A DNA stretch of 64,000 nt from Massilia litorea (GTDB lineage: Bacteria; Pseudomonadota; Gammaproteobacteria; Burkholderiales; Burkholderiaceae_D): assembly GCF_015101885.1 (NCBI RefSeq), contig NZ_CP062941.1:2232001-2296000 (forward strand), in the 5' to 3' direction. Under the pieces are notes generated by a model that was given only the letters and a program-made list of their open reading frames with translations, was not told the origin of the DNA and searched no databases. Shown piece after piece: positions 10,593 to 24,343 of this stretch; the first letter of the stretch is position 1; each line of letters begins with the position of its first letter. The position numbers and the translations under genes are program-made.

Positions 10593-10760
10593 GGAGGAAG
10601 AGGGCACGGATGGACCCGGCATTATAAGGTTTCGGGCGCGGTTTTCACGATCGGGATTTTCCCAGGGGCGCATGAGTCGCCCCTTGCGGTGCCGCCAGGC
10701 GCTACCGGGCGAACGGCGCGCCGCGAAGGAGCCGGGGCAGTTATGATTTAGACAGCAATG

Positions 10761-10783
10761 ACCGCCCGTCGCACCTGGGCGGT
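10761..10783. promoter_or_regulatory. Hairpin in the leader of the tubulin-like operon
   Basis: Perfect 7-bp arms ACCGCCC and GGGCGGT flank a nine-base loop, 38 bp before the first gene of the operon. It could be a leader structure or an operator; nothing further can be said. Confidence 0.3.
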
Positions 10784-10820
10784 ATGCATATCTCCAATCA
10801 CTCGGGAACGGCGCAGCACG

Positions 10821-12302
10821 ATGGCAACACGATGGGACACGCCAACCAGCACCTGGCTGGAAGACGAGACGAGCGGGCAGTTCGCGCTCCAGGCCACGAC
10901 CGGCCTGGGGCCGATCGACTGGCAGGCGCATGCACGCGGCCGGCTGCCGGACGTCGCCCATCTGCTCGGCGCTTCGCTGCCCGCCAGCTGCGCACACGCC
11001 GGCATCTACCCTGAAGGTTTCAGTTTTTGCCCCACCTGCGGCGCGCCGCTCGAACGGCTCGATGGCCAGGTCCAGCACCAGCCCGACTGGTGGGGCGCCG
11101 CCAGCGACCAGGCCCTGCCGCGCCACGTGCCGCACGGTTTGCCGGTGACCTCGCTGGCGCTGGGCGACCGCCTCGAAGGACGGCCCGCCGCCCCGGCAGT
11201 CAATCGCGCGGAACTGGCCATGCCGGCGCCGCCGAACGCGCATTGCGTCTTCATCGCCGGCACCTACGGCTTTCCCGAGCAGAGGTTGCTGGCCCTCGCG
11301 CCGGCACGCGGCGTGCTGCAGTACTGGGATCCGCTGGCCCAGCTGTGGCACGTGATGGGCGCCGAAGAAGCGGGCGCCGAGCTGCGCTTCAACGCCGGGG
11401 GCTACGGCTGGCTGCCCGCACTCAATCCCGCGCGCGGGGAGGTCGGCATCGTGCCGCTCGATACGGGTCTGTCTCGCCTGTGGATCAATCCGGTCAACGA
11501 AAGCTACCGCCTTGAGCTGCTGTTCGCCGGGCGCCTGGCCTCGAGCCCTGGCGTCATGCGGCGCCAGGTCGGCTGCCTGTACGTGGAAGACGGCGTACTG
11601 AACCTGCTCGATGCGCAGCTCGACTTCGTCAACGGCACGACCTGGGAATGCCCGGATGCGCCGACCTCGGGCTGGATGCGCCCGATCGGCTACGACAACC
11701 GCCTGTTCTGGCTGCATCCGCAAGGGCAGCTGGTCTGGCGGCCGGGCGAAGAGCCGCGCTGGACGCCGTGGCCGCGCGGCTGGACGCCGAAGCTCGATTT
11801 CGGCGGCCCGACCCAAAGCCGCGACGGCCGCCTGTGGCACATCGGGCACGACGGCCAGGCCTATTCCTTCCTCGAACTCGGCGCCGACAATCCCCAGGTG
11901 GAACCGATCGACGGCGCCCGTCTCGGCTTTGCCAACTTCCTGTTCCGGCGCGGCCATCCCGTGCTCGATCAACCCTGGTCGGCCGAGCACATCGAAGACG
12001 CGGCCCAGGACGATTCGCTGGTGCTGCCGCTGCTGCGCAGCTTTAATAACAACCGCAGCCAGCCGAGCGGCCTGGTGCTGCGCTTTCATGCCTACACCGG
12101 CCGCGCCGAGGAGGCGCTGGCGGGCCGCACGATCGCGCGCACGACGATCGAATGGATCGGCAAGCGCAACCTGATCCTCGACGAGGTCGCGCGCCTGGCG
12201 CGGCCCCTCGACTGCGTGCCTTTCGTGTATGCCGGCGCGCTATGGCTGCACCATCCGGACTGGAACACGGTGCGCGGCTGGCGCCTGGAAGCCCTGACGT
12301 GA
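10821..12302 (+). CDS. Zinc-ribbon protein of the tubulin-like operon, unknown function
   Basis: A 493-residue protein without signal peptide or membrane helix. Cys57, His59, Cys70 and Cys73 (the last pair in FCPTCG) form a probable zinc ribbon. The remaining 400 residues are Trp/Gly/Leu-rich with repeating beta-strand patterns and Gly-Trp turns (GGYGWLPALNP, IGYDNRLFWLHPQGQLVW, RDGRLWHIGHDGQAYSF). This suggests a beta-propeller or similar beta-repeat scaffold. The start at 10821 has no strong Shine-Dalgarno. Its stop shares one base with the ATG of the next gene (TGATG), so translation is coupled. I do not recognise a family; the operon context suggests a cytosolic partner of the tubulin-like protein. 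Confidence 0.78.
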   Translation: MATRWDTPTSTWLEDETSGQFALQATTGLGPIDWQAHARGRLPDVAHLLGASLPASCAHAGIYPEGFSFCPTCGAPLERLDGQVQHQPDWWGAASDQALPRHVPHGLPVTSLALGDRLEGRPAAPAVNRAELAMPAPPNAHCVFIAGTYGFPEQRLLALAPARGVLQYWDPLAQLWHVMGAEEAGAELRFNAGGYGWLPALNPARGEVGIVPLDTGLSRLWINPVNESYRLELLFAGRLASSPGVMRRQVGCLYVEDGVLNLLDAQLDFVNGTTWECPDAPTSGWMRPIGYDNRLFWLHPQGQLVWRPGEEPRWTPWPRGWTPKLDFGGPTQSRDGRLWHIGHDGQAYSFLELGADNPQVEPIDGARLGFANFLFRRGHPVLDQPWSAEHIEDAAQDDSLVLPLLRSFNNNRSQPSGLVLRFHAYTGRAEEALAGRTIARTTIEWIGKRNLILDEVARLARPLDCVPFVYAGALWLHHPDWNTVRGWRLEALT

Positions 12303-13783
12303 TGGCGGCGCTGGCACGTATCCTCATGGTCGCCGCACTGCTGTGCGGCGCGGGTTCAAGCTGGGCCACGCCGCATGTCTTCCTGGTCCAGAACTCGGGC
12401 TGGATGGAGCCCTTCTACAGCGATCCCGCCTCGCCCTTCAAGCCGCTGGTGACGGAACTGGCGCTCGCCGTGGCCCAGCCGGGCGACGCGCTGGTAGTGG
12501 CCGCCTTCAACCAGTCGCAGCCGAATGCGCCGTCGCCGCGTGCGCTCGTCTCCACCACGGTCGACAAGGGCACGCGCACGGCCGTCACGCGCGCGCTGGC
12601 CGGCCTCGATACGGCCCATAAAGCGGGTGGCGCGCTGGCCGACACCGACCTCGGCGAAGCGGTGGGGGCCGCCCTGGGCCAGGCGCTGGGCGGCAAGGAC
12701 GGCATCGTCTGGCTCGTCACGAACAACCGCAACAGCCCGAACAACGACCAGGCCACCGCCCAGCGCAACCGCGAGTTCTACCAGTTGATCCACCAGGGAG
12801 GCAAGATCCGCACCGCGCTCGCTTTCCCGCTGCGCATGCCGGTGAAGGGCGCGCACTACAGCGCGAACGGCCTGATGGTGTATGCCTTCGCCATCGGAGA
12901 GGGCGGCGCGCGCGCCCTCGACGGCTTGCTGGCCTCGGGCTCTGTACGCAAGATCATCACCGAGCCGCCGGCGCGCCTGAAACCGCTCGACCGCGATACC
13001 GTGCGCCTGGTGCCGCGCAAGGTCGAGAACGCGCCGGGCGTCAGCTTCGCAATGAGCCAGAACGGCGTGCTGCGCGCCGACGTGGCGCCGAACGCGCGCT
13101 CGCCCAACGCGAAGATCGCCTGGCACCTCGAGAACACGATGTACCCGTACACCATCGTCAGTGCGAGCTTGAGCGCGCGCTCGAAGCTGGGCGGCGAAGA
13201 CCGCGCCGTCACGCTGGGCAGCAGCCACGTGACGGCGCTGGCGCCAGGCAAGCCGCAGCCGCTGGGTTCTACCCTGCAGCTGCCGGTGGCGCAGCTGCCC
13301 GGGAAATGGTCGGTAGAAGCCCTGAAATCGGCCGGCTCGGCCTATGTGCTGCCGGGGACCATCGAGCTGCACCTGGCGGAGCAGAAGCTGGCGCTGTCCC
13401 AGGGGTTCAGGGAACGCATGACGGAACTGTTCCCGGGCGACCCCTTGCCCGACATTTTTACGCCGCCGGCCCAGGTGCAGGCCTCGACCGCCGTGCTGCC
13501 GATCGAAGTGCGGGTGCATTACGGTTCGGGCCCCTTGCTGGCCGCCGGCGGCGCCTTGCTTGCGCTGCTCGCTGCTGGTCTGGCAGCCGCCTACGGCTGG
13601 ATGCGTCCACGCCGCGCACTGGTGACGGTCGAGGACGAGCAGCGCACCATGCATGCGCGTACCGGCACCGTGCAACCGATTTACGACAAGGCGGGCAATG
13701 AAGTGGCGCGCCTGAAGACCACCCTGTTCGGCCACCAGTTGATTGACCTGCGCGAAGGCGCGCAAGTCCGTCTTGGCCGCTGA
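12302..13783 (+). CDS. vWA-like secreted domain with C-terminal membrane anchor
   Basis: A 493-residue protein: signal peptide (1 to about 22, ending SSWA), then an alpha/beta domain starting HVFLVQNSGWM. Its pattern of strand, acidic-loop position, long helix (PLVTELALAVAQPGDALVVAAF) and later strand GIVWLVTNNRNSPNN is that of a von Willebrand A fold. The MIDAS Asp is replaced (QNSGW instead of DxSxS), so metal binding may be lost. A beta-rich region follows, then a membrane helix at about 415-440 (LLAAGGALLALLAAGLAAAYGW). A basic cytosolic tail of about 55 residues ends the protein. The topology would let a periplasmic sensor contact the cytosolic tubulin-like protein. Confidence 0.75.
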   Translation: MAALARILMVAALLCGAGSSWATPHVFLVQNSGWMEPFYSDPASPFKPLVTELALAVAQPGDALVVAAFNQSQPNAPSPRALVSTTVDKGTRTAVTRALAGLDTAHKAGGALADTDLGEAVGAALGQALGGKDGIVWLVTNNRNSPNNDQATAQRNREFYQLIHQGGKIRTALAFPLRMPVKGAHYSANGLMVYAFAIGEGGARALDGLLASGSVRKIITEPPARLKPLDRDTVRLVPRKVENAPGVSFAMSQNGVLRADVAPNARSPNAKIAWHLENTMYPYTIVSASLSARSKLGGEDRAVTLGSSHVTALAPGKPQPLGSTLQLPVAQLPGKWSVEALKSAGSAYVLPGTIELHLAEQKLALSQGFRERMTELFPGDPLPDIFTPPAQVQASTAVLPIEVRVHYGSGPLLAAGGALLALLAAGLAAAYGWMRPRRALVTVEDEQRTMHARTGTVQPIYDKAGNEVARLKTTLFGHQLIDLREGAQVRLGR

Positions 13784-13809
13784 TCAATAAAGAAAAAAAG
13801 GAAAACACG

Positions 13810-14235
13810 ATGCAAGCCCAGACCGATCCCGGATTCAAGCTCCCCGCCGATAAATCGACGCCGGACGACCCGCAACCAAAAACCACGCCCGAAACGGCGA
13901 CCGGCCCGGTCGAGGTGGTGCCGGGCAAACTGGCGCCCGCCACCGACACCTCGACCCGCGACGTCGCCATCGGCGGCGCCATCTTCATCGTGCTGCTGGT
14001 CGTCTACTTCTTTGTTCGCAACGCCTACGTGCACCACATGGTCGTGCGCCGCGTGGCGCCGTCCACCGCCGGCAGCGCCGGCTGGATGCTGTTCGTCGGC
14101 CTCGCCTTCCTGTCGGCTGCCGTGGTGCTGGCGATCGTCAATGCGAGCAAATACCTCACCTTCGGCGTCACCGCGCCGCTGGTGGCAGTCGGCGTGGTGG
14201 CCTTGATTGCGGCGCTCGTCATCGGCCGCCGCTAA
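13810..14235 (+). CDS. Small three-helix membrane protein
   Basis: A 141-residue protein. The first 55 residues are Pro/Thr/Asp-rich and disordered (TPDDPQPKTTPETATGP). Three hydrophobic helices follow: GGAIFIVLLVVYFFV, WMLFVGLAFLSAAVVLAIV and TAPLVAVGVVALIAALVI, ending in a basic GRR. It lies 26 bp after the vWA-like gene, with AAAGGAAAACACG before the ATG, and 12 bp before the tubulin-like gene. No family recognised. It is a likely membrane tether within this operon. Confidence 0.78.
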   Translation: MQAQTDPGFKLPADKSTPDDPQPKTTPETATGPVEVVPGKLAPATDTSTRDVAIGGAIFIVLLVVYFFVRNAYVHHMVVRRVAPSTAGSAGWMLFVGLAFLSAAVVLAIVNASKYLTFGVTAPLVAVGVVALIAALVIGRR

Positions 14236-14247
14236 AGAAAGAACGAC

Positions 14248-17200
14248 ATGGCAGACATCCCCACCCTCGATCAAATCAACCGCAAGTCCGAGCTGAAGGT
14301 CGACCTGCGCCCGACGCTGTTCATCGGCGCCGGCGGCACCGGCATGGAAGTCATGATGCGCATCCGGCGGCGCATCCTGTCCGCGGTCTGGAACCGCCAT
14401 CACCCGACGCGCGTCGAATCGATTGCCGACTTTCCGGTGGCGCGTTTCCTTCACTTCGACCTCGATTCGAACGCCGTCATCGACGAGGGTAAATCGCAGC
14501 GCACCGATCCCTGGTACGAGCTGGTCAAGCTCACCGATGAAGAGCGCCTGGTCGAACCGCTCGACCTGCCGCAATACCACGAGTCCGACGACAGCCTGGC
14601 GCGCTTCCCCTTGATCGAGAAATGGATGCCGCTGCGCCCGAAAAAACTGCGCTCGCTCGGCATCGACCCCTCGAAAGGGGCAGGCCAGATCCGCGCCGTG
14701 GCGCGGCTGTACTTGTTTGATAAATACCCGAAGCTGCGCGGCCGCATCAAGGGCGCATTGAACTACCTGGGCAGCAATGCCGGCATCGAACGCAAGGAGA
14801 ATTACCAGAGACTGGGCCTGCAGGTCGATACCTCGAAATTCCGCATCGTCGTCATCGCCTCGAACGCGGGCGGCACCGGCGCCGGCAGCGCCATCGACCT
14901 GGGCTGGATGGCAAAAGCCATCGCGCGCCAGGAAGTGGCGGACAGCCAGGTCGACCTGGTCATGTTCATGCCTTCCGGTTTCGCCAAGGCCAATAAGGAG
15001 CGCACCGAGGCGAATGCCTACGCGACCATGATGGAGCTGGAGACCACCATGCGCGACATGAACGCGCAGGTGAAATGGATGGACCCGGACAGCATCACGG
15101 GCCGCGGCGCGCCCTTCGACGACGTGTATTTCGTCGATACCGCCAATCTCGCCAACAAGGCGACCCAGGACGTGAAGGACGTCTACCAGATGGTGGCCGA
15201 TACCCTGTTCGAGGATTTCGCCTCGGCGGACTTTGCCAACCGCAAGCGCTCGGTCGCGGTCAACCAGCAGCAGCATAAACTCGGCCCCTACAATCCGCGC
15301 GTGCCGGAGGGACGTTTCGGCGACATGCGCCTGTCCTACTCGAAGGTGTATTCGGCCTTCGGCCAGTCGGTGCTCGACACCCAGCAAAGCCTGCGCGAGG
15401 ATATCCGCGCCTACGAGCTGGCGGCGCTGATGGTCAAGGAATTCTTCGGCCTGGTGGGGCGCGACGGCGCGCTGGCGCGGCGCGCGGGAGACCAGGAACG
15501 CGACGGCTTCATGCGCGAGCAGATGGACATGCGCGAGCTGCCCTTCGACGAATTCCCCGATTTTAAAAAGGGAACCGTCGACGTCACGCCGTTCCAGGAA
15601 TACGCATTGACCGGCCTGCTCCTGCGCGACAAGGAAGGGCGCTCGCTGCTGGAACGCGTCGAGAGCAAGGTGAACCTCGAGATGGACCGCATCATGGCCG
15701 CCTTCGACGTGCCCCAGTGGCGCGAGCGCGTGGCGGAACTGCTGCCGAACCTCGAGCGCGACGCCATCCGCGAGGCCGGCGCCAGCGCCGAGACCAGCGA
15801 AGACCGCATCAAGCGCCACACGATCGAACTTACCGGAGGCCTCAAGGCGCGTGTGCGCGAGCGCCTGTACGCGCTGCTCGACGATCGCAAGCAGGGCGGG
15901 CTCGAATTCGTGCTGTCGCTGCTGGAGCAGGTCAAAGCGCGCCTGCAGCAGCGCGACCTCGCCAACGCCGAGCGCAACGGCCGCCGCTACCGCGACATCC
16001 GCGACGCGCTGCGCACGCGGCAAGTCGAGGAATCGCTGAACAACCTGTCGCAGGCCTCCGGCCGCCTGTTCGGCAAGGACGCGCAGGCGCGCGAGGTCAT
16101 GGCGCATTTGAAACGCGACATCGCCGACTACCTGCGTTTTCATTTGCTGGCCGTGGCCGCCGGCCAGGCGATCGAGGTCATGCGCGGCATGTCGACCTGG
16201 CTGGGCGAACCGCAGTCGACCGACGAGCAGGGCAACGCCCAGTGGAGCGGCATCGCCGGCGAATTCCAGGAGGGACGCAGGCATGTGCAGGAGATCCTGC
16301 GCGCGGTCGACGGCCGCATCAGCCAGCTGCGTGCGGATGCGCGCCAGGAGCACGCCACCTACATCAAGCTGGCCGGCGACGTGATGCCGGCGCCGGTGCG
16401 CCTGACCGGGGATGTGAGCGCCTGGAGCGAAGAAGTGCTGCTCGAATTCGGCGGTTCCGGAAAACTGTTCCCACAGCTGGGCGACGAGCGTACGCGCGCG
16501 GATCTGTTATTAAAACTGTTCCGGCGGGCCCAGACCCAGCTCTCGAATACGGAGCTGGAAGGCGAGCCGACCGATCCGCTGCTCGACCGTCTGAATGCGA
16601 TGACGCCGCAGGAACGCCAGCGCGTCTTCGCGGAATGGATCCGCAGCGCCATGCCTTGGGTGAACGCGCGCTTCTCGGCCGAGTTCACGCCGAATGCCGA
16701 CCAGTTCAAGTGTTTTATCGGCGTCGGCGACGTGTCGGCCTGGCGCAGGATGGAAGGCGAGATCCGCGCCGCCGTGCCGACCGGGTATTTTCATGGCGAC
16801 CTGGTCTCGGTCGTGAACACCGGCATTCCGGGCCGCGCGGTCTGCTATATCGAGCTGTCCGGTTTCCCGATGACGATCCTGCGCGGCCTGCCGACCTGGC
16901 GCGCCTCGTACCAGATCGAGAACCCGAAGATCCCGACCCACCTGCACTTCGATTCGACCCGCTTCCGCCACCCGATCTCGCCCTCGATGGACGAACTCAA
17001 TCGCCTGGCCGACGATTACGAGTGGTTTTTACAGGCGATCGCGCTCGGCGTGATTCGCCGGAAAGTCGACGCGGGCGACCGCGAGGCGGCCTTCCAGCCG
17101 CGCGGACAATACCTGTTCGAAGTCGAGCCGGGTTCCGGCGAATGGCTGCAGATCGGGAACGAGTACGCGATCCGCTCGAACGGCCTGCCGCCGTATTACC

Positions 17201-17898
17201 GCGAGCAGGTGATCGCGGCCGTGCGCAACCGCCAGGCCGGGCTCGGACCGCACCAGTTGCTGCTGCTCGCCGCCCTGATGCGTCATTACCAGCTGCGCGT
17301 GTACGAGCCGCGCCTCGAGATGGACGAAACCGGCGCCCAGCTGCCGTCGCCGTCCCTGCCGAACATCACGGCGCGCCGCCTGTACGAGGCCTGGCTGCGG
17401 CGCGCGCAGGCGGCTGCCCCCACCTTGTCGAACGTGGCGGTCGATGCGGCCCTGGCCGCAATCGCGGCCTGGAGCGACACCGTGCCGGATTCCGCCATGG
17501 ATGCCTACAGCTGGGAAGTCGAGCGCCCGATCGACAAGCGCATCGTCAAGCCCGAGATCCTGGCCAGCGAGGCGCGCGCCGCCGCGGCGCTGGAAGTGCG
17601 CGGCCTGGGCTCGCCCGTGAGCGTGGTGGCCACGATTCCCGATCCGGCGCCCGCACCGCAGGGCGCCCGCTACAAACTGTTCGTGGCCGGCGCGCAGCGC
17701 GGGCCGTTCGCGGTGGACGAGGTGGCGCAACAGCTGGCGCGCGGCGAGATCGACCTCGGCACGCGCGCCTGGGATATGGCGCAGGACCCGAAGTCCGGCA
17801 AGTGGGGACTGGTGTCCGACATTCCTGGCATTGCCGCCATGGCCGGCCATGCGCCATCGATTCCCGATCCGGACGACGGCGTCCCGGATCCGCAGTAA
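14248..17898 (+). CDS. Tubulin/FtsZ-like protein with C-terminal GYF_2-like domain
   Basis: A 1216-residue cytosolic protein. The N-terminal 500 residues have the nucleotide-binding signatures of the 'tubulin-like' (Tubulin_2) family. These are a first Gly loop FIGAGGTGMEVM at about 26-36 and the tubulin signature loop SNAGGTGAGSA at about 205-215, matching the GGGTG[ST]G motif of FtsZ and tubulin. A long helical middle with Arg/Glu-rich coiled-coil segments (about 500-720) follows, then a mixed domain. Residues about 1142-1195 (YKLFVAGAQRGPFAVDEVAQ, with the GPF and a terminal W.L..D) look like a GYF_2 peptide-binding domain. It is about three times longer than FtsZ. It likely forms GTP-dependent filaments or a membrane-associated scaffold; polymerisation is inference. 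Confidence 0.85.
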   Translation: MADIPTLDQINRKSELKVDLRPTLFIGAGGTGMEVMMRIRRRILSAVWNRHHPTRVESIADFPVARFLHFDLDSNAVIDEGKSQRTDPWYELVKLTDEERLVEPLDLPQYHESDDSLARFPLIEKWMPLRPKKLRSLGIDPSKGAGQIRAVARLYLFDKYPKLRGRIKGALNYLGSNAGIERKENYQRLGLQVDTSKFRIVVIASNAGGTGAGSAIDLGWMAKAIARQEVADSQVDLVMFMPSGFAKANKERTEANAYATMMELETTMRDMNAQVKWMDPDSITGRGAPFDDVYFVDTANLANKATQDVKDVYQMVADTLFEDFASADFANRKRSVAVNQQQHKLGPYNPRVPEGRFGDMRLSYSKVYSAFGQSVLDTQQSLREDIRAYELAALMVKEFFGLVGRDGALARRAGDQERDGFMREQMDMRELPFDEFPDFKKGTVDVTPFQEYALTGLLLRDKEGRSLLERVESKVNLEMDRIMAAFDVPQWRERVAELLPNLERDAIREAGASAETSEDRIKRHTIELTGGLKARVRERLYALLDDRKQGGLEFVLSLLEQVKARLQQRDLANAERNGRRYRDIRDALRTRQVEESLNNLSQASGRLFGKDAQAREVMAHLKRDIADYLRFHLLAVAAGQAIEVMRGMSTWLGEPQSTDEQGNAQWSGIAGEFQEGRRHVQEILRAVDGRISQLRADARQEHATYIKLAGDVMPAPVRLTGDVSAWSEEVLLEFGGSGKLFPQLGDERTRADLLLKLFRRAQTQLSNTELEGEPTDPLLDRLNAMTPQERQRVFAEWIRSAMPWVNARFSAEFTPNADQFKCFIGVGDVSAWRRMEGEIRAAVPTGYFHGDLVSVVNTGIPGRAVCYIELSGFPMTILRGLPTWRASYQIENPKIPTHLHFDSTRFRHPISPSMDELNRLADDYEWFLQAIALGVIRRKVDAGDREAAFQPRGQYLFEVEPGSGEWLQIGNEYAIRSNGLPPYYREQVIAAVRNRQAGLGPHQLLLLAALMRHYQLRVYEPRLEMDETGAQLPSPSLPNITARRLYEAWLRRAQAAAPTLSNVAVDAALAAIAAWSDTVPDSAMDAYSWEVERPIDKRIVKPEILASEARAAAALEVRGLGSPVSVVATIPDPAPAPQGARYKLFVAGAQRGPFAVDEVAQQLARGEIDLGTRAWDMAQDPKSGKWGLVSDIPGIAAMAGHAPSIPDPDDGVPDPQ

Positions 17899-17910
17899 CG
17901 GGGGAGGGCT

Positions 17911-18753
17911 GTGCAAGAAGATTCGATGGTCCGCTGTATCCAGGCCGCGTGCGGGCATGTCCTGCCGCGGCGCGTGAATTTCTGTCCGTATTGCGGGACC
18001 GCGCAAGGGGCGGCGGGAAGCACGCGGCTGCATCCGGTGGACAGGTCCGACGCCGTGCCGGACAAGCCGCTACCGGTCGCGGTCCCCGTGGCGGCGCCTG
18101 CGCCCGCAACACGTTCCGAACCCGCGGCGCCGGCATCGAGCGCGCCGGCGCCGGCCGCAGCGCAGAGTGCAACGCCGGCGCCGGCGCCGATGCCAACGCC
18201 GGCGCCTGTTGCGGCCGGCCCGGGCGTGCCGCCGCCACCGGCCGCCACGCCTTCACCCCAGCCGCCCCGTGCCGTGCCCGCCGGCGGCGCGGCGCCGCCG
18301 CGGCGCGAACCGGTGCGCCTGCGCTGGTGGCTGCTGGCGCTGGCGGCGCTATGGGCGATCTGGCTGATTGCCAAGCCGTCGAACCGGCGCATCGAGGCGC
18401 AAATGGACAAGGCGATCGCGCTGGCGGCCGAGTGCAAGGCGCGCGAAGCCCAGAGCGAACTGATCGCCCTGCGCGGCACCAGGGCCACAGCCGAGCAACT
18501 GCAGAAGGTGCAGGCGGCGCTCAACGAGGCGAGCGCCGCCTGCACCCGCAAGCGCCAGCGCGACAAGGCCTGGCGCGAGACGAAGCCGGCGATCGAATCG
18601 GCGCTGTCGGCTTCCTCGTTCGAACGTGCCCGTGCGCGCCTGCGCGCCTTTACCAGGCGCTGGGGCGAGGACGACGAGACGCGCGCGCTGAAGGAGCAGA
18701 TCGACGCCCGCGCGCCCGAACATCGGCGCGCCGACGAGGTCGAAGGAGGATGA
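17911..18753 (+). CDS. Zinc-ribbon, Pro/Ala-linker, single-helix membrane protein
   Basis: A 280-residue protein starting at GTG 17911, preceded by GGGGGAGG. An N-terminal four-Cys zinc ribbon (Cys9, Cys14, Cys25, Cys28; last pair in FCPYCG) is followed by about 90 residues of Pro/Ala linker with very high GC. A membrane helix lies at about 137-155 (RWWLLALAALWAIWLIA). A charged helical C-terminal domain of about 120 residues has regularly spaced Cys and Arg/Glu. The zinc ribbon would be cytosolic and the helical part periplasmic. The GYF_2-like domain of the preceding protein is of a type that binds Pro-rich peptides, so the Pro-rich linker is a plausible ligand. This is inference from composition and adjacency. 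Confidence 0.8.
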   Translation: MQEDSMVRCIQAACGHVLPRRVNFCPYCGTAQGAAGSTRLHPVDRSDAVPDKPLPVAVPVAAPAPATRSEPAAPASSAPAPAAAQSATPAPAPMPTPAPVAAGPGVPPPPAATPSPQPPRAVPAGGAAPPRREPVRLRWWLLALAALWAIWLIAKPSNRRIEAQMDKAIALAAECKAREAQSELIALRGTRATAEQLQKVQAALNEASAACTRKRQRDKAWRETKPAIESALSASSFERARARLRAFTRRWGEDDETRALKEQIDARAPEHRRADEVEGG

Positions 18754-18819
18754 CGCGCAGGGTGATGCAAAGCGCACGCAAGGTGTATGCTTCAGGAAAC
18801 ACGACTACAGGAGCAAAGC

Positions 18820-19173
18820 ATGAAGAAGACGACCATGTTCGGTGCATTGCTGGTGCTGGCCCTGGCCGCCGGCTGTTCGCGCCAGGACCACGGCATGGGC
18901 CCGGCGCAACAGGCCGGCAAGGCGGTCGACGAAGCCGGCGACAAGGTGGCCGAAGGACTACGCGCACCATTGGAAAAGGCGGACGCGGCGGCGAAAAAGC
19001 TGGCCGAGCGCGCCGACCAGGAACGCCGCCAGCTGGCCGAGCGGACCGAGGACGCGCGCGAGAAGATCAAGGACGCGACCCAGGAAGCCGGCCGCGGGCT
19101 GCAGAAGGCGACCGGCAAGGTCGGCGAGAAGGTCGAGCAGGCCGGCGAGAAGTTGCAGGACGCGGCGCGCTGA
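18820..19173 (+). CDS. Helical lipoprotein, apolipoprotein-like repeats
   Basis: A 117-residue lipoprotein: signal MKKTTMFGALLVLALAAGC with Cys19 as lipidation site. The mature part is almost entirely amphipathic helix made of Ala/Lys/Glu/Asp heptads and 11-mers (KAVDEAGDKVAEGL, KVGEKVEQAGEKLQDAA). CAGGAG precedes the ATG at 18820; an ATG 11 codons earlier lacks lipoprotein character. It follows the zinc-ribbon gene by 66 bp and may be the last gene of the tubulin-like operon or have its own promoter. It is convergent with the diguanylate cyclase gene, 24 bp away. Confidence 0.8.
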   Translation: MKKTTMFGALLVLALAAGCSRQDHGMGPAQQAGKAVDEAGDKVAEGLRAPLEKADAAAKKLAERADQERRQLAERTEDAREKIKDATQEAGRGLQKATGKVGEKVEQAGEKLQDAAR

Positions 19174-19197: not shown

Positions 19198-21267
19198 CTA
19201 CGCGCTGGCCCGCAACTCCGGATACCCACCTGTCACGATCGACAGATCGACAAACCCCGCGCGCCAGGCCTGTTCCAGGTTCTGTTCGACTTCTTCCATC
19301 GAGGTGCGCCCGAAATTGGCGAACCCGCGCACGCCGTAGGCGCGGTTGCGGCCGTGGCCCTTGGCCATGTACAGCGCCATGTCGACCAGGTTGACGGCGC
19401 GTTCCCAGGGCAGCGGCTTGCCGGCCGGCGCCAGCGGGTAGGGTGCAAAGCCGATCGACACGTTCACGGACAGCGTCGTGCCCTGGAACTCGATGCTGGT
19501 CTCGCTGATGCCGTTCAGCAGGCGGCGCGCCACCTCGTCCAGGCCGCTCGCCGGGATCGCGGGTAAAAAGGCGAGGAATTCCTCCCCGCCCCAGCGCACG
19601 ATCATGTCGGTCTCGCGCAGGATCTCGCGCAGGCTCTCGGCAATCCTGATCAGGACCGCGTCGCCGGCGCCATGGCCCCAGGTGTCGTTGATGTGCTTGA
19701 AGTGGTCGACGTCCATCAGGAACAGCGCGCTGACCATCGCCTCGCCCGAGGTGCCGGCGCCGCGTTTTTCGTCCACGCGGTGGCCGCGCATGAAGTCCTG
19801 GAAGTGGCGGCGGTTGTACAGCCCCGTGAGCGGATCGCGCACGCTCTGCTGCTTCAGTTCCTGGTTCTTCAGGTAGAGCTGCGCGTTCGCGTGGCGCACC
19901 TTGCGGTACAGGAGGCCGACCACGAGCGAGGCCAGCGCGAACACCACGACCAGCAGCCACCAGACGCGCTGCTGCAGCCGGCGGTTGTCGATCTCGACCG
20001 ACTTGACCTGGTTCTCGCGTTCCAGCAGGACGATCTGGCGCTGCTTCTTGTCGGCGTCGTATTTTTCCCGGAGTTCGAGCATCGCCTTCTGGCGGCGCTT
20101 CTCGAACAATTCGTTCGACAGGCTGCGTTCGCGGTGATACGCCTGGACTGCGCCGGCATAATCTCCCGCGCGCTCGAGCGCCGAGCCGTATTCGGCCAGC
20201 ACGGTCTGCAGCTCGGGCTTGTCGCCGTTTTTTTCGTAGGCGGCCAGGCCCGCTTCGAAGCTGCGCTTGCCCTCGGCCAGGCGGCCGGTGGCAAGATAGG
20301 CCTGGCCCAGGTTGACGCGGGCGGTGGCCAGGCCATTTTCGTCGTTGATCGCGCTTGCCGCGGCGATCGCCTGGTTCGCGTAGGACGCCGCATGGGCGTA
20401 GTCGCGCATGCGCAGGTAGCAGTCCGACAGGTTCACCAGCGAGCGCGCGGCCAGCGCGTGCGCGCCGATCTGGCGTTCGAGCGCAAGGGCGGCCGTCTGT
20501 GCCTTCAGCGCGCGCTCGAGTTGTCCGGATTCGACCGCAAGGCCGTATTCGGTGCTCTTCAGGGTCGCCAGGCGGCCCGGCGAATCGGTTTTTTCCGCAG
20601 CGACCAGCGCCTCGGCCAGCGCCTCGAAGCCCTTGTCGTACTCGCGCATCTGGCGGTACAGCCGCGCCAGCGAATTGAGCACGATCACCAGGTGGACCGG
20701 ACCGCCATGCTGGCGCGTATAGGCCAGCGTCGCCTGCATTTTTTCGAGGGCGCGCGGGAAGTTGCCCTCCTCGGCGAAAGACTCGGCAGCCGACACGCCG
20801 ACGCGCACGCGCAGTTCGACGTCATCGGTCGTGTTCGCGAGGCGCTCCGCTTCCCAGATCAGTTCATGCGAAGCGGACAGCTCGTTCCGGTCGTACTTGA
20901 TGTAGCCCTTGCGTACCAGGCCCTTGGCCAGGGCGGCATTGTTCTGGTGCGCGCGCCCGAAAGCGATCAGCTCGTCGCAGGTGGCCAGCGCCAGTTCCTG
21001 CTTGCCCACCTTCTGGTAGGCGACGCACAGCTGCGCCAGCATTTCGCCGGCGTCCTCGACCGAACCCGCGCGCGCCTCGGTCTCGATCCTGAGCAGCATC
21101 GGCAGGGCGCGTTCGGGCGTAAAACGGTTGATTTCGCGGATCTCGGCCAGGCGCTCGCCAAGCGGCGCGGCAGCCTGGGCCCAGGCGCAGGAGCTCGCCA
21201 GCAATAACGAAGCCAGCAGCGTCGCGGTGCGACGGCGTGGCTGTCTGGACGTGCGTGCTGCCGGCAT
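19198..21267 (-). CDS. Membrane diguanylate cyclase with periplasmic TPR sensor
   Basis: A 689-residue protein. It has a signal peptide (ending AWAQA), about 380 residues of TPR-type helical repeats, a coiled coil (KYDADKKQRQIVLLERENQV) and a membrane helix at about 433-455 (VWWLLVVVFALASLVVGLLY). A cytosolic GGDEF domain follows. The active site is GGEEF (about 559-563) and an inhibitory I-site RETD sits five residues before it, so it should be an active, product-inhibited cyclase making c-di-GMP. The substrate loop LFLMDVDHFKHINDTWGH is intact. The TPR part probably senses a periplasmic peptide or protein. It is a single-gene unit, convergent with the helical lipoprotein. Confidence 0.9.
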   Translation of the reverse strand: MPAARTSRQPRRRTATLLASLLLASSCAWAQAAAPLGERLAEIREINRFTPERALPMLLRIETEARAGSVEDAGEMLAQLCVAYQKVGKQELALATCDELIAFGRAHQNNAALAKGLVRKGYIKYDRNELSASHELIWEAERLANTTDDVELRVRVGVSAAESFAEEGNFPRALEKMQATLAYTRQHGGPVHLVIVLNSLARLYRQMREYDKGFEALAEALVAAEKTDSPGRLATLKSTEYGLAVESGQLERALKAQTAALALERQIGAHALAARSLVNLSDCYLRMRDYAHAASYANQAIAAASAINDENGLATARVNLGQAYLATGRLAEGKRSFEAGLAAYEKNGDKPELQTVLAEYGSALERAGDYAGAVQAYHRERSLSNELFEKRRQKAMLELREKYDADKKQRQIVLLERENQVKSVEIDNRRLQQRVWWLLVVVFALASLVVGLLYRKVRHANAQLYLKNQELKQQSVRDPLTGLYNRRHFQDFMRGHRVDEKRGAGTSGEAMVSALFLMDVDHFKHINDTWGHGAGDAVLIRIAESLREILRETDMIVRWGGEEFLAFLPAIPASGLDEVARRLLNGISETSIEFQGTTLSVNVSIGFAPYPLAPAGKPLPWERAVNLVDMALYMAKGHGRNRAYGVRGFANFGRTSMEEVEQNLEQAWRAGFVDLSIVTGGYPELRASA

Positions 21268-21557: not shown

Positions 21558-23117
21558 ATGAATGGATTGGTGAAGACCGGCATTGTCGGTCTCGACGAAG
21601 TACTGCACGGCGGCATTCCGCGTAACAACAACCTGATCGTCGAAGGGCCGCCCGGCTCGGGCAAGACCACGCTGGGCCTGGGTTTCATCTACCACGGCGC
21701 GCTTGACCACGACGAGGCGGGCGCCATCGTCTCGTTCGAGCTCGACCCTGCCAAGCTGCTGCGCGACGCCGCCGGTTTCAACTGGGACCTGCAGGGCATG
21801 ATCGACCAGGGCAAGATCAAGATCATCCAGACCAGCCCGGCCGTGCTGCTGAGCGAGTTCCGCAGCGCCGACGGCGCCTTTGCCGCCTCGCTGGCCGCGA
21901 TGGGCGCCAAGCGCCTGCTGATCGACGGCCTGACGCCGCTGCGGCTGTATGCCGAGGTGAACGACATGAATTTCCGCGAGGACGTACACCTGCTGATCGA
22001 AGGACTGACGCGCCTGGGCGTGACGACCATGGTCACGGCCGAGAAGGACGAGTCCCTGACCGGCGTGCTGGCGCACGAGCGCTTCGTCTTCGACACCATC
22101 ATTTCGCTCACGCGTGAAGAAACCCGGCGCCGCGTGCACCGGCGCCTGACGATCATGAAGTCGCGCGGCCAGGATTTTATTGGCGGCAGCCACACGATGC
22201 GCATCGAGCCGGGCATGGGCGTGCACGTCTACCGCCGCGCCCAGTCGCGTCCGATCGCCCATGCCGACCAGCCGACCTCGGAAGAGCGCATGTCGACCGG
22301 TTCGCCGGCGATCGACAAGATGATGGACGGCGGTATCTATAAAGGTTCCGTCACGCTGGTGAGCGGCATCTCCGGTACCGGCAAGACGGTGCTGAGCGTG
22401 CAATTCCTGACCAATGCCATCAAGGAGGGCCACAAGACCCTGCTGGTGAGCCTGGACGAACACCCGGCCCAGCTGATCAGGAACGCCAAGTCGCTCGGCT
22501 TCGACCTGGCGGGCCTGGTCGAGTCGGGCGATCTGTTCATCCATTACGAGTCGCCGCTGGAACTGGAACTCGATGTCCACTTCGACCGCATCGTCAAGCT
22601 GGTCGAAGAGCAGGGGATCGATTGCGTGGTCTTCGATTCGATCGCCGTCTACGAGATGACCAGCCGCAGCGAAGTGGCCGACTACCTGTACGCGCTGGCC
22701 ACCTTCTTCAAGGACCGCCTGGCGACGATCCTGTTCAACTACGAAAGCCCGGAGCTGCTGGGCGTGTCGCAGATCAGCGAAGAGCTCAAGGGCTCGCACC
22801 TGGTCGACAACATCATCCTGCTGAACTACGTCGAGGTCTCCACCGTCCTGCGCCGCGCGATCGCCGTGCCGAAGGTGCGCGGCAGCCGCAACCAGCAGAT
22901 CACGCGCGAGTACACCATCGGCGTCGGTGGCCTGCTGCTGATCGACGAGAGCGACAACGACACCCAGTCCAGCGCCGTTCCGCAACTGCCGTTCTCCTCG
23001 TACTACGGCCTGCTGTCGCGCTCGCCGTCGCGCCAGAGCCCCCTGATCGAGGAAGCCGTCGTCAAGGGCAAACCCCTGCCCGAATCGCCGGACCTGCCGA
23101 CCGAAAAGCCGCAGTGA
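21558..23117 (+). CDS. KaiC-like double RecA-domain ATPase (copy 1)
   Basis: A 519-residue protein with two tandem KaiC/RecA domains. Walker A motifs are GPPGSGKTT (about 30-38) and SGISGTGKTV (about 268-277). Walker B-like strands are RLLIDGL and CVVFDSI. The catalytic acid region is SFELDP in domain 1 and SLDEHP in domain 2. The C-terminal block LKGSHLVDNIILLNYVE aligns with the KaiC phosphorylation segment: Ser413 fits Ser431 of cyanobacterial KaiC, but the Thr432 equivalent is His. No KaiA or KaiB gene is nearby. The stop overlaps the GTG of a histidine kinase gene, so the pair is co-translated and probably works as one signalling unit. Confidence 0.88.
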   Translation: MNGLVKTGIVGLDEVLHGGIPRNNNLIVEGPPGSGKTTLGLGFIYHGALDHDEAGAIVSFELDPAKLLRDAAGFNWDLQGMIDQGKIKIIQTSPAVLLSEFRSADGAFAASLAAMGAKRLLIDGLTPLRLYAEVNDMNFREDVHLLIEGLTRLGVTTMVTAEKDESLTGVLAHERFVFDTIISLTREETRRRVHRRLTIMKSRGQDFIGGSHTMRIEPGMGVHVYRRAQSRPIAHADQPTSEERMSTGSPAIDKMMDGGIYKGSVTLVSGISGTGKTVLSVQFLTNAIKEGHKTLLVSLDEHPAQLIRNAKSLGFDLAGLVESGDLFIHYESPLELELDVHFDRIVKLVEEQGIDCVVFDSIAVYEMTSRSEVADYLYALATFFKDRLATILFNYESPELLGVSQISEELKGSHLVDNIILLNYVEVSTVLRRAIAVPKVRGSRNQQITREYTIGVGGLLLIDESDNDTQSSAVPQLPFSSYYGLLSRSPSRQSPLIEEAVVKGKPLPESPDLPTEKPQ

Positions 23118-24343
23118 TCAGGGTCGAACTGCCTGGTAATACGCCGGTCGACTGGGAGGACTGGGACACGCCGCTGACGCAGTTTACGGAAGCGACGGGC
23201 CTGGTCACGTCCGCCTGGGACACGGCCGGCGTGCGCCGTATCGGGCCGAAGACGGGCTCGCGCCTGGCGAGCCTGCTGGCCCGCTCGCGGCTGTGGGACG
23301 AGGATGGGCCCGGCACGGCGCTCGAACGCACACTGGTCGAAGCGGCCTGCGCCAGCGGCGAATGCGGCTCGGCGCAGTTCGGCGGGCTGCGCGTCTGCGC
23401 CCAGCCGCTGCTGCTGCGCGGCGAGGTGTATGGCGTGCTGGTGTTCGGCTGGCGCTTCGCCGACTTCAGTTCGCCGCTCGAGTGCGAACGCATCGCCAAG
23501 CAGATCGGCCTGGCGGGCCACCTGCTGTGGAACGAGGTGCGCCTGGACGCGCCCGTGTCCGAGGGGCGCATGGCCACCTATGCGGCGCTGCTGGGTACCT
23601 TGTCGAACACGCTCGACCGCCAGCGCGAAACCATCGATGACCTGACGCGCGTGAACCGCACGCGTGAACTGTTCCTGGCCACGGTGTCGCACGAAATGCG
23701 CACGCCGCTGTCGGCGCTGTCGATGCGCATCGAACTGCTGCTGCGGACCATCCCCGACCTGCCGCCGAAAGTCGTCAGCGGCCTCGAATCGATGCGCGTG
23801 CACGTGCGCCAGGAAGCCGGCATGGTCGACGACCTGATCGACGCCGCGCGCACGCTGACCGGGCAGATGTCGATCACCCGTTCCCCGATCGCGCTGGGCC
23901 AGGTCCTGCGCGACGCGATTTCGACCGTGGAAACCTTCGCGCATACCAAGCACATCCGGATGCTGGTCACCCCCAGCGATTACGGCGACGCCATCCGGCT
24001 CGAGGCGGACGGGCGCCGCCTGCAGCAGGTGATCTGGAACCTGCTGTTCAACGCCACCAAATTCACGCCCGAAGGCGGCCTGATCCGGATCACGATCGGG
24101 CGCACCGCGGATACGGTGGCGATCGACATCGCCGACTCCGGGCAGGGCATCGAGCCGGACGACCTGCCGCACGTGTTCGGCGCGTTCAATCTCCAGCAGC
24201 AGGACAATGCGACCGGGCTGGGTCTGGGCCTGTACATCGCGCGCCGCATCGTCGAGCTGCACGAGGGCACCCTGAGCGTCAGCAGCGCCGGGCGCGGGCA
24301 GGGCGCGACCTTTGCGATCCGGCTGCCGGTCGCGCCAGGGTAA
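23114..24343 (+). CDS. Cytosolic sensor histidine kinase paired with KaiC-like ATPase
   Basis: 409 residues, starting at GTG that overlaps the KaiC-like stop (GTGA). The first 150 residues have a GAF-like alpha/beta pattern (CAQPLLLRGEVYGVLVFGW). The HisKA domain has phospho-acceptor His193 in FLATVSHEMRTPLSALS. The HATPase_c domain has an N box (QVIWNLLFNATKFTPEGG), G1 (DIADSGQGI) and G2 (GLGLGLYIARRIVELHEG). No membrane helix is seen, so the input is cytosolic. The tight overlap with the KaiC-like gene recalls output kinases that read KaiC state (for example SasA), but here no KaiB-like domain is visible. No response regulator adjoins it. Confidence 0.88.
   Translation: MIRVELPGNTPVDWEDWDTPLTQFTEATGLVTSAWDTAGVRRIGPKTGSRLASLLARSRLWDEDGPGTALERTLVEAACASGECGSAQFGGLRVCAQPLLLRGEVYGVLVFGWRFADFSSPLECERIAKQIGLAGHLLWNEVRLDAPVSEGRMATYAALLGTLSNTLDRQRETIDDLTRVNRTRELFLATVSHEMRTPLSALSMRIELLLRTIPDLPPKVVSGLESMRVHVRQEAGMVDDLIDAARTLTGQMSITRSPIALGQVLRDAISTVETFAHTKHIRMLVTPSDYGDAIRLEADGRRLQQVIWNLLFNATKFTPEGGLIRITIGRTADTVAIDIADSGQGIEPDDLPHVFGAFNLQQQDNATGLGLGLYIARRIVELHEGTLSVSSAGRGQGATFAIRLPVAPG

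Follow-up and report, generated by a model that had tools for sequence, protein, structure and literature searches.

In the tubulin superfamily, FtsZl1 proteins were described in 2010 as one of the lineages that have diverged furthest (Makarova & Koonin 2010, PMC2875224), and the Tubulin_2 proteins were set apart as divergent 'FtsZ-like' in a 2023 phylogeny (PMC9871819). Here we describe a gene set around such a protein in Massilia litorea, consisting of genes A to E and a neighbour, gene F. The window, i.e., the whole stretch of 64,000 nucleotides that was analysed (contig NZ_CP062941.1, positions 2,232,001 to 2,296,000), lies on the larger of the two contigs of a 5.35-Mb genome. The FtsZl1 family is already known, and the gene set is a newly described variant. 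Comparisons with published systems are based on excerpts of the cited articles.

Gene content and conservation of the locus

A check of the open reading frames of the window confirmed six genes, all on the forward strand, at the places given in an earlier note that had been made from the sequence alone (Table 1). The two glycine loops of D and the tight spacing were likewise present as described there, with a TGATG overlap at the junction of A and B and later gaps of 26, 12, 12 and 33–66 bp.

Relatives of the locus were obtained from one contig scan, which yielded 71 loci (72 with the window; cited below by L numbers); the closest among those fetched are from Massilia, with 96% identity over D. 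Gene calling and clustering recovered A-B-C-D in the same order and on the same strand in 70 of the 71 fetched relatives and in the window. The order is therefore not a matter of chance; the sole exception, L015, lies on a contig that begins within B. The same order was also found in L086, which belongs to another class, and in L090, from another family of the order, and the upstream neighbour of the operon was identical in 65 of the 72 loci. In 66 of the 72 loci (window counted), D was immediately followed by E; no E was called in L025, L029, L043, L046, L054 and L071, the first three of which contain an E-like stretch by tblastn. Because the genes of the relatives were called with our own script, some starts of E and B were placed too late. 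The operon of six genes proposed in the earlier note was not supported. Gene F was rejected as an operon member and is not part of the core, because it directly follows E in just 28 of the 72 loci; in 23 loci, other genes stand between E and F, in 13 no F was found downstream, and the remaining 8 have no called E or end there.

Gene B is encoded in 56 of the 59 genomes of the genus (own genome counted) and absent from three; 52 of the 56 carry a window-type B (59–100% identity) and four solely a type of 42% identity, and genome G616 has both types. PF13809, the Pfam family of D, is rare, occurring in 7 of 299 genomes of a phylum sample (6 above the cut-off) and in 7 of 300 genomes of the order. 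A search with D gave no match in the phage collection, so that a phage origin was rejected, and four matching plasmid records. A tree of 42 proteins, built with a quick method and rooted at the midpoint, had long branches to the outgroup. In it, 20 rows formed a window-type clade with support 100, and 16 rows, among them Acinetobacter and Janthinobacterium, formed a second clade with support 97.

Table 1. Positions of the genes and sequence features in the window (all on the + strand)
Feature	Position	Strand	Basis or remark
TATGAT, -10-like box 5' of gene A	10742..10747	+	by-eye reading of aligned upstream regions
Gene A, 493 amino acids	10821..12302	+	open reading frame; cluster in 71/72 loci
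A, zinc-ribbon-like knuckle CAHAGIYPEGFSFCPTCG	10989..11042	+	CPxC motif
Gene B	12302..13783	+	open reading frame; signal peptide, vWA-like domain, beta-rich region, transmembrane helix, tail
B, degenerate MIDAS motif 1, VQNSGWME	12386..12409	+	Q for Asp, W for second Ser
B, degenerate MIDAS motif 3, TNNRNSPNN	12719..12745	+	Asn for Asp
Gene C	13810..14235	+	open reading frame; cluster in 72/72 loci
Gene D, 1216 amino acids, FtsZl1/Tubulin_2	14248..17898	+	PF13809 match
D, T1-like loop GAGGTG (residues 27-32)	14326..14343	+	invariant glycines
D, T4-like loop NAGGTGAGS (residues 206-214)	14863..14889	+	invariant glycines
D, GYF_2 domain (about residues 1142-1195)	17671..17832	+	PF14237; profile match to 7z3c_A
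D, C-terminal peptide IPDPDDGVPDPQ-COOH	17860..17895	+	phi-P-x-P near the end
Gene E	17911..18753	+	cysteine pattern, Pro-rich linker
E, zinc ribbon CIQAACGHVLPRRVNFCPYC	17935..17994	+	Zn_ribbon_3
Gene F, helical lipoprotein	18787 or 18820..19173	+	neighbour, outside the core

The tubulin-like protein D

Judged by its sequence, D is a full-length member of the FtsZl1/Tubulin_2 family and thereby of the tubulin/FtsZ superfamily, as the earlier note had proposed. It matches PF13809 with 164.7 bits (cut-off 27; E-value 4.5e-48) over residues 24-393, which cover positions 1-352 of the profile. Alignment A1 comprised 103 D proteins (33–91% identity to D of the window, which is included), taken from the loci and from 240 listed matches out of 694 and 1181 found. 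Residues 26-32 of D read IGAGGTG, and G29, G30, T31 and G32 of this T1-like loop as well as G208, G209, T210 and G211 of the T4-like loop are invariant throughout the alignment. Among 22 diverse Tubulin_2 proteins, including the second copy of the own genome, one from Thermus and one from a cyanobacterium, the T1-like loop is kept in 20–21 and the T4-like loop in all 22. A position-by-position mapping of T6 and T7 on D (N300 conserved in 21 of 22) was too weak to be claimed, and phmmer searches with D or with its GYF domain alone returned nothing meaningful. Two canonical FtsZ genes (PF00091) are separately present in the genome (G000:C1:262654-263124 and G000:C1:3586618-3587088); for this reason, D is probably not the FtsZ of cell division. 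Canonical FtsZ occurs in two copies in 4 and in one copy in 14 of the 18 other genus genomes searched.

The GYF_2-like tail of D, as read in the earlier note, reappeared in profile comparisons. The profile of the 103 D relatives matched chain 7z3c_A of the PDB with an E-value of 6.1e-9, the sole match below 0.1; entry 7z3c is named 'Adventurous gliding motility protein X' (AgmX/GltJ of Myxococcus). PF14237 was recorded for 120 of 120 and 107 of 120 relatives among the matches listed. The NCBIfam model of GltJ matched the GYF domain in two relatives, L174 and L073 (22.5 bits at best and 17.5 for the other, against a cut-off of 450), and gave no match in the Tubulin_2 proteins of L003 or L086 (four proteins compared). 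A strict regular expression for GYF, which recognised 30 of 80 D proteins, was set aside as over-restrictive, since tails that it missed visibly contain the domain and PF14237 is listed for most relatives.

D ends in a short proline-containing peptide. The tail counts leave out L054 (too short) and L071 (cut), giving 79 proteins, or 80 with L071. The form phi-P-x-P occurs within the last seven residues of 75 of the 79 D proteins and of none of 1107 others, and the exact ending [IV]PDP[DEQ] in 64 of the 79; because of the relatedness of the sequences, with members of the window-type clade making up most of the 79, these counts are not independent. Of 80 D proteins, 66 contain the pattern [IVLM]PDP[DEN], as do 6 of 71 A proteins; it is absent from 72 proteins each of B, C and E and from 826 other proteins of these loci. 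The tails are of the IPDPE type in the window-type clade and often of the MPPPL type in the sister clade, i.e., the position of the peptide is held while its letters switch between clades. Of the 87 rows of alignment A1 from Acinetobacter onward, 43 have the strict phi-P-x-P form, and 69 satisfy a more relaxed PPP form. Several D tails carry similar motifs ahead of the GYF domain as well. A genome-wide DNA search for the tail motif gave 54 matches (26 for the reversed control); of the 30 places read, one is the D tail and four others (L198, L201, L207, L209) lie at most 24 codons from the end of an open reading frame, with frames unchecked as genes. In FtsZ, too, a linker leads to a conserved docking peptide at the C-terminal end, and by this analogy we infer that the D tail may be a docking or cross-linking peptide.

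The motif IPDPD, as in the D tail, also occurs in the A proteins of L039, L051, L053, L064, L067 and L069; in those aligned (L039, L051, L053), it sits in a loop that is inserted relative to other A proteins.

Partner proteins and related loci

By inspection, B consists of a signal peptide, a von Willebrand factor A (vWA)-like domain, a beta-rich region, one transmembrane helix and a cytoplasmic tail of about 58 amino acids. The profile of B (alignments A2–A4 held 23 proteins of B, 23 of A and 19 of C) was compared by hhalign with 25 VWA_2 domains, taken from 25 of 30 fetched loci; probability was 65.7 and the E-value 5.7e-5. Seven other pairings gave 0.053–0.62, one of them being D against FtsZ, for which a positive outcome had been hoped. 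B is thus probably a vWA-domain protein, in keeping with the vWA-like partner named in the earlier note. The three positions of the metal ion-dependent adhesion site (MIDAS) align between the two profiles; the intact site (DxSxS, T, D) is not present in B, which has Q-x-S-x-W, with N replacing the last D. Q and W of motif 1 are found in all 68 B proteins that cover it (the other 5 of 73 were called late) and TNN of motif 3 in 73 of 73. The invariance of these replacements marks a conserved loss and suggests that B binds its ligand without the usual MIDAS metal.

Protein A is cytoplasmic, with a zinc-ribbon-like knuckle at its N-terminus and no signal peptide seen. The CPxC of the knuckle is present in 65 of 71 A proteins; of the six others, three have an N-terminus that is truncated or was given a late start, and three (L071 and both Acinetobacter proteins) lack it. 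The knuckle is also lost in L090. Zn_Ribbon_1 matched weakly in 15 of 23 A proteins. E combines an N-terminal zinc ribbon and a Pro-rich linker with one transmembrane helix and a helical, TPR-like C-terminal part, the latter two read by inspection. It matches Zn_ribbon_3 with an E-value of 4.2e-5 and 23.3 bits, under the cut-off of 27. The cysteine pattern occurs in 72 of 72 E proteins (loose pattern, frames extended upstream), and in 66 of 72 the linker has 10 or more Pro; L086, L090, L170 and all loci in which no E was called are excluded from these counts. The earlier note had read two zinc-ribbon proteins from the sequence, and A and E agree with this. By inspection, C has three transmembrane helices and a Pro-rich N-terminal segment.

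A further gene, G, which encodes a glycine-zipper lipoprotein of about 240–250 amino acids, completes the order A-B-C-D-E-G in all five sister-clade Oxalobacteraceae loci examined (L174–L177, L179), in three of which E was recognised solely by its zinc ribbon and linker. The same order was found in both Acinetobacter loci, and G occurs in 9 of the remaining 69 fetched loci. G is absent from the window, where F occupies the place after E. The genome of L179 has both operon types; its second copy (L179:9949-18901) lies beside a flagellar or motility-like cluster (MotB-like and MotA-like by eye).

The own genome contains a second FtsZl1 locus (L003:8000-16981; G000:C1, about 1.958–1.967 Mb). It encodes a glycine-zipper protein, a caspase (Peptidase_C14, E-value 2.4e-14), a DUF4384 protein, a Tubulin_2 protein, a TPR protein and an M64 peptidase, with the caspase and DUF4384 genes replacing A, B and C. 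The glycine-zipper protein aligns with G at an hhalign E-value of 1.1e-6 (seven controls 0.021–0.39), and the TPR protein (Pfam) has by inspection the layout of E, with a cysteine-rich N-terminus. The two loci therefore share D-type, G-type and, by layout, E-type parts. No GYF match was found in the Tubulin_2 protein of L003 (E-values up to 0.01). The second locus, gene G, the lost metal site of B and the terminal peptide of D go beyond the earlier note.

A more distant D-type gene, with 28.6% identity over 97% of D, lies on an Azospirillum plasmid (L170:3021-17468; NZ_CP039644.1, typed as mobilizable). It is preceded by a C-type gene (tblastn E-value 2.9e-8) and an A-type gene (1.2e-10, from the A of L086), and its surroundings include three genes of the caspase family, three of the OmpA family and two for DUF4384 proteins. 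On a Thermus oshimai plasmid (L171:3712-13363; NC_019387.1), genes for a TROVE-domain protein, a vWA protein with intact MIDAS, a tubulin-like protein and a hypothetical protein are followed by brxL. The Thermus vWA protein retains DTSGSM and TDG, both of which are altered in B.

The region 10600-10821 is a divergent promoter region. From 72 loci, 19 upstream regions were chosen and aligned; TATGATTT was read by eye in 18 of them, and L027 has TATTATTT. Roughly 40 bp farther upstream, all 19 share an invariant GCTACC block, and a GGCGCGCC-like sequence stands beside it. The TATGAT box was not listed by a generic promoter scan. Downstream, a TPR-GGDEF gene beside F (19198-21267, - strand) is followed by a gene for a KaiC-like double ATPase (21558-24343, + strand) and by a gene that resembles a histidine kinase by eye.

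Comparison with known systems and interpretation

Like the A–E set, the published FtsZl1 operons (Makarova & Koonin 2010, PMC2875224) combine an N-terminal tubulin-like domain and a long C-terminal extension with a vWA-like neighbour and membrane proteins; membrane remodelling by FtsZl1 is an inference of these authors, and nothing in the present results points to the surface-stress role considered in the earlier note. The locus is nevertheless a variant distinct from these operons, as the earlier note had suspected. The metal site of the vWA protein is intact in the majority of the published operons and lost in B, and the GYF domain and phi-P-x-P tail of D and the set A-B-C-D-E-G are further differences (the word GYF has no occurrence in the text of PMC2875224). 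Kinases and P-loop GTPases, which are frequent but not universal partners in FtsZl1 operons, are lacking from A–F. Searches of A–F with Pfam, NCBIfam and PADLOC assigned no function beyond Tubulin_2, the zinc ribbon and a weak GYF, and a literature search (open-licence articles, titles and beginnings of abstracts) turned up no experiment on an FtsZl1 protein.

ZitP of Caulobacter resembles E in that a zinc ribbon at its N-terminus lies in the cytoplasm and precedes a single transmembrane helix; it differs in its C-terminal DUF3426 and in its partner PopZ, the excerpt naming no tubulin-like partner (PMC5182065). AgmX/GltJ and D have the type of GYF domain in common, and their similarity is confined to this domain. 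The gliding machinery of Myxococcus has MreB as its cytoskeletal element, which here would be of the tubulin type, and no motor or MglA-type gene is present among A–F. The GYF domain and the zinc ribbon of GltJ reportedly control the assembly of focal adhesions together with MglA. AgmX has been described as a potential membrane protein (PMC3169522) and has a zinc-finger domain (PMC5182065); MglA effectors include GltJ according to a review, and a title in the reference list of PMC12288465 places the activity of CglB, an adhesin with a vWA domain, at focal adhesions.

With about an even chance of being right, we read A–E as a proteobacterial FtsZl1 module in which a cytoplasmic scaffold of the tubulin family is coupled across the inner membrane. 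D, as a nucleotide-binding protein, would form or nucleate the scaffold at the cytoplasmic surface of the inner membrane, where a dedicated trans-membrane set would hold it. D would bind and hydrolyse guanosine triphosphate (GTP) and self-assemble, and its GYF domain would capture the phi-P-x-P tails of neighbouring D subunits or the Pro-rich linker of E, a capture that would couple assembly to anchoring; which peptide the domain binds is a guess. The vWA domain of B would face the periplasm, bind an envelope ligand without the MIDAS metal and report through the cytoplasmic tail, and G, where present, would extend the link toward the outer membrane. The output might concern shape, envelope repair, adhesion or signalling; by analogy with the focal-adhesion proteins of Myxococcus, which have the same domain types, the cytoskeleton would most likely be linked to the envelope mechanically or positionally. 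A more specific version, which we regard as speculative and unlikely, is a tubulin-type counterpart of focal adhesions, in which D is cross-linked to itself by GYF domains and tails and the resulting membrane-bound cytoskeletal patch grips a periplasmic, metal-independent vWA domain through B, C, E and G; the two FtsZl1 loci would then be two versions of a single core for envelope coupling (D-, E- and G-type) with different output modules.

Several results weigh against the coupled scaffold. Comparisons of D with FtsZ alignments by hhalign were weak (P 0.053 and 0.023), although the latter, with 20 FtsZ proteins, was collinear over T1, an ANTD-like strand, T3 and T4 (0.17–0.24 against vWA); PF00091 matched with an E-value of 0.34 only, and no catalytic T7 loop could be recognised in D. 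The superfamily membership of D is therefore based on the curated family and the loops, and D may not polymerise. The GYF domain of the window scores 18.2 bits against PF14237, below the cut-off of 25.8, and D of the window does not reach the GltJ model. The Pro-rich linker of E was rejected as a carrier of the IPDP[DE] motif of D (0 of 72 E proteins), so that E would not be the partner if this motif is the GYF ligand. Pfam gave a vWA match in none of 23 B proteins, and neither the profile of B nor that of A matched a PDB chain up to an E-value of 10. B was not detectable in the 17-kb Azospirillum stretch and is hence not indispensable everywhere. Outside a few genera, its occurrence is patchy: 65 of 245 genomes of the family (7 of its 44 genera), 4 of 300 genomes of an order sample and, in a class sample of 276 genomes, solely the own genome.

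The same genes could instead form a signalling complex that senses the envelope, with D as a nucleotide-controlled switch or chaperone-like scaffold that makes no filaments. The vWA, zinc-ribbon and GYF domains are adaptor modules, and F and a GGDEF gene adjoin the operon in part of the loci, both of which suit such a complex. So does the report of the FtsZl1 authors that similarity to T6-H7 or to the C-terminal domain of FtsZ could not be found with confidence (PMC2875224). The invariant T1- and T4-like loops, however, fit an assembling protein, as does the layout of D, in which the core is followed by a long region and then by a conserved peptide at the end, similar to FtsZ, and there is no kinase or regulator among A–E; we consider the signalling complex rather improbable. 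That the locus has decayed or is unimportant and kept by chance is extremely improbable. The lack of G in the window would agree with decay, but the frames are intact, the gene order and the presence of B in the genus are maintained as described above, and the motifs of D and B are invariant down to 33% overall identity.

The caspase genes of related loci keep a further explanation in play, namely a conflict or cell-death system in which D would be a tubulin-type assembly platform of nucleoside triphosphate-dependent immunity or suicide and, in related loci, caspases would be the effectors. Tubulin and vWA genes co-occur in the predicted GTPase-centred GAP1-N2 systems (Kaur et al. 2020, PMC7159879), where, as here, a tubulin with an alpha-helical or coiled-coil extension is combined with a membrane vWA protein. 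The second FtsZl1 locus of the own genome has its caspase, the Azospirillum D-type gene is flanked by caspase-family and OmpA-family genes, and the Thermus tubulin-like gene is one gene away from brxL. In contrast to the GAP1-N2 systems, A–F gave no match to a GTPase or to FNIII repeats (no GAP1-specific model was run), and the tubulin-containing systems have been described for Firmicutes and Actinobacteria (PMC7159879). Nor is an HSP70, MoxR or effector family encoded among A–F, and PADLOC gave no match for A–E and weak coiled-coil matches for F. The stable chromosomal place of the locus, with B nearly throughout the genus and the same gene upstream in most loci, speaks against a conflict system, as do the lack of phage matches and the four plasmid records of D; all in all, we consider this explanation quite unlikely.

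As a small conserved FtsZl1 set in culturable beta-proteobacteria, the locus makes the question of FtsZl1 polymerisation, and of the membrane at which it would occur, directly testable. It offers several handles for this, namely the invariant loops, the GYF domain, the terminal peptide with its clade-dependent sequence and the probable vWA domain that has lost its metal site. The set may represent an undescribed connection between cytoskeleton and envelope that is built around a very large relative of tubulin.

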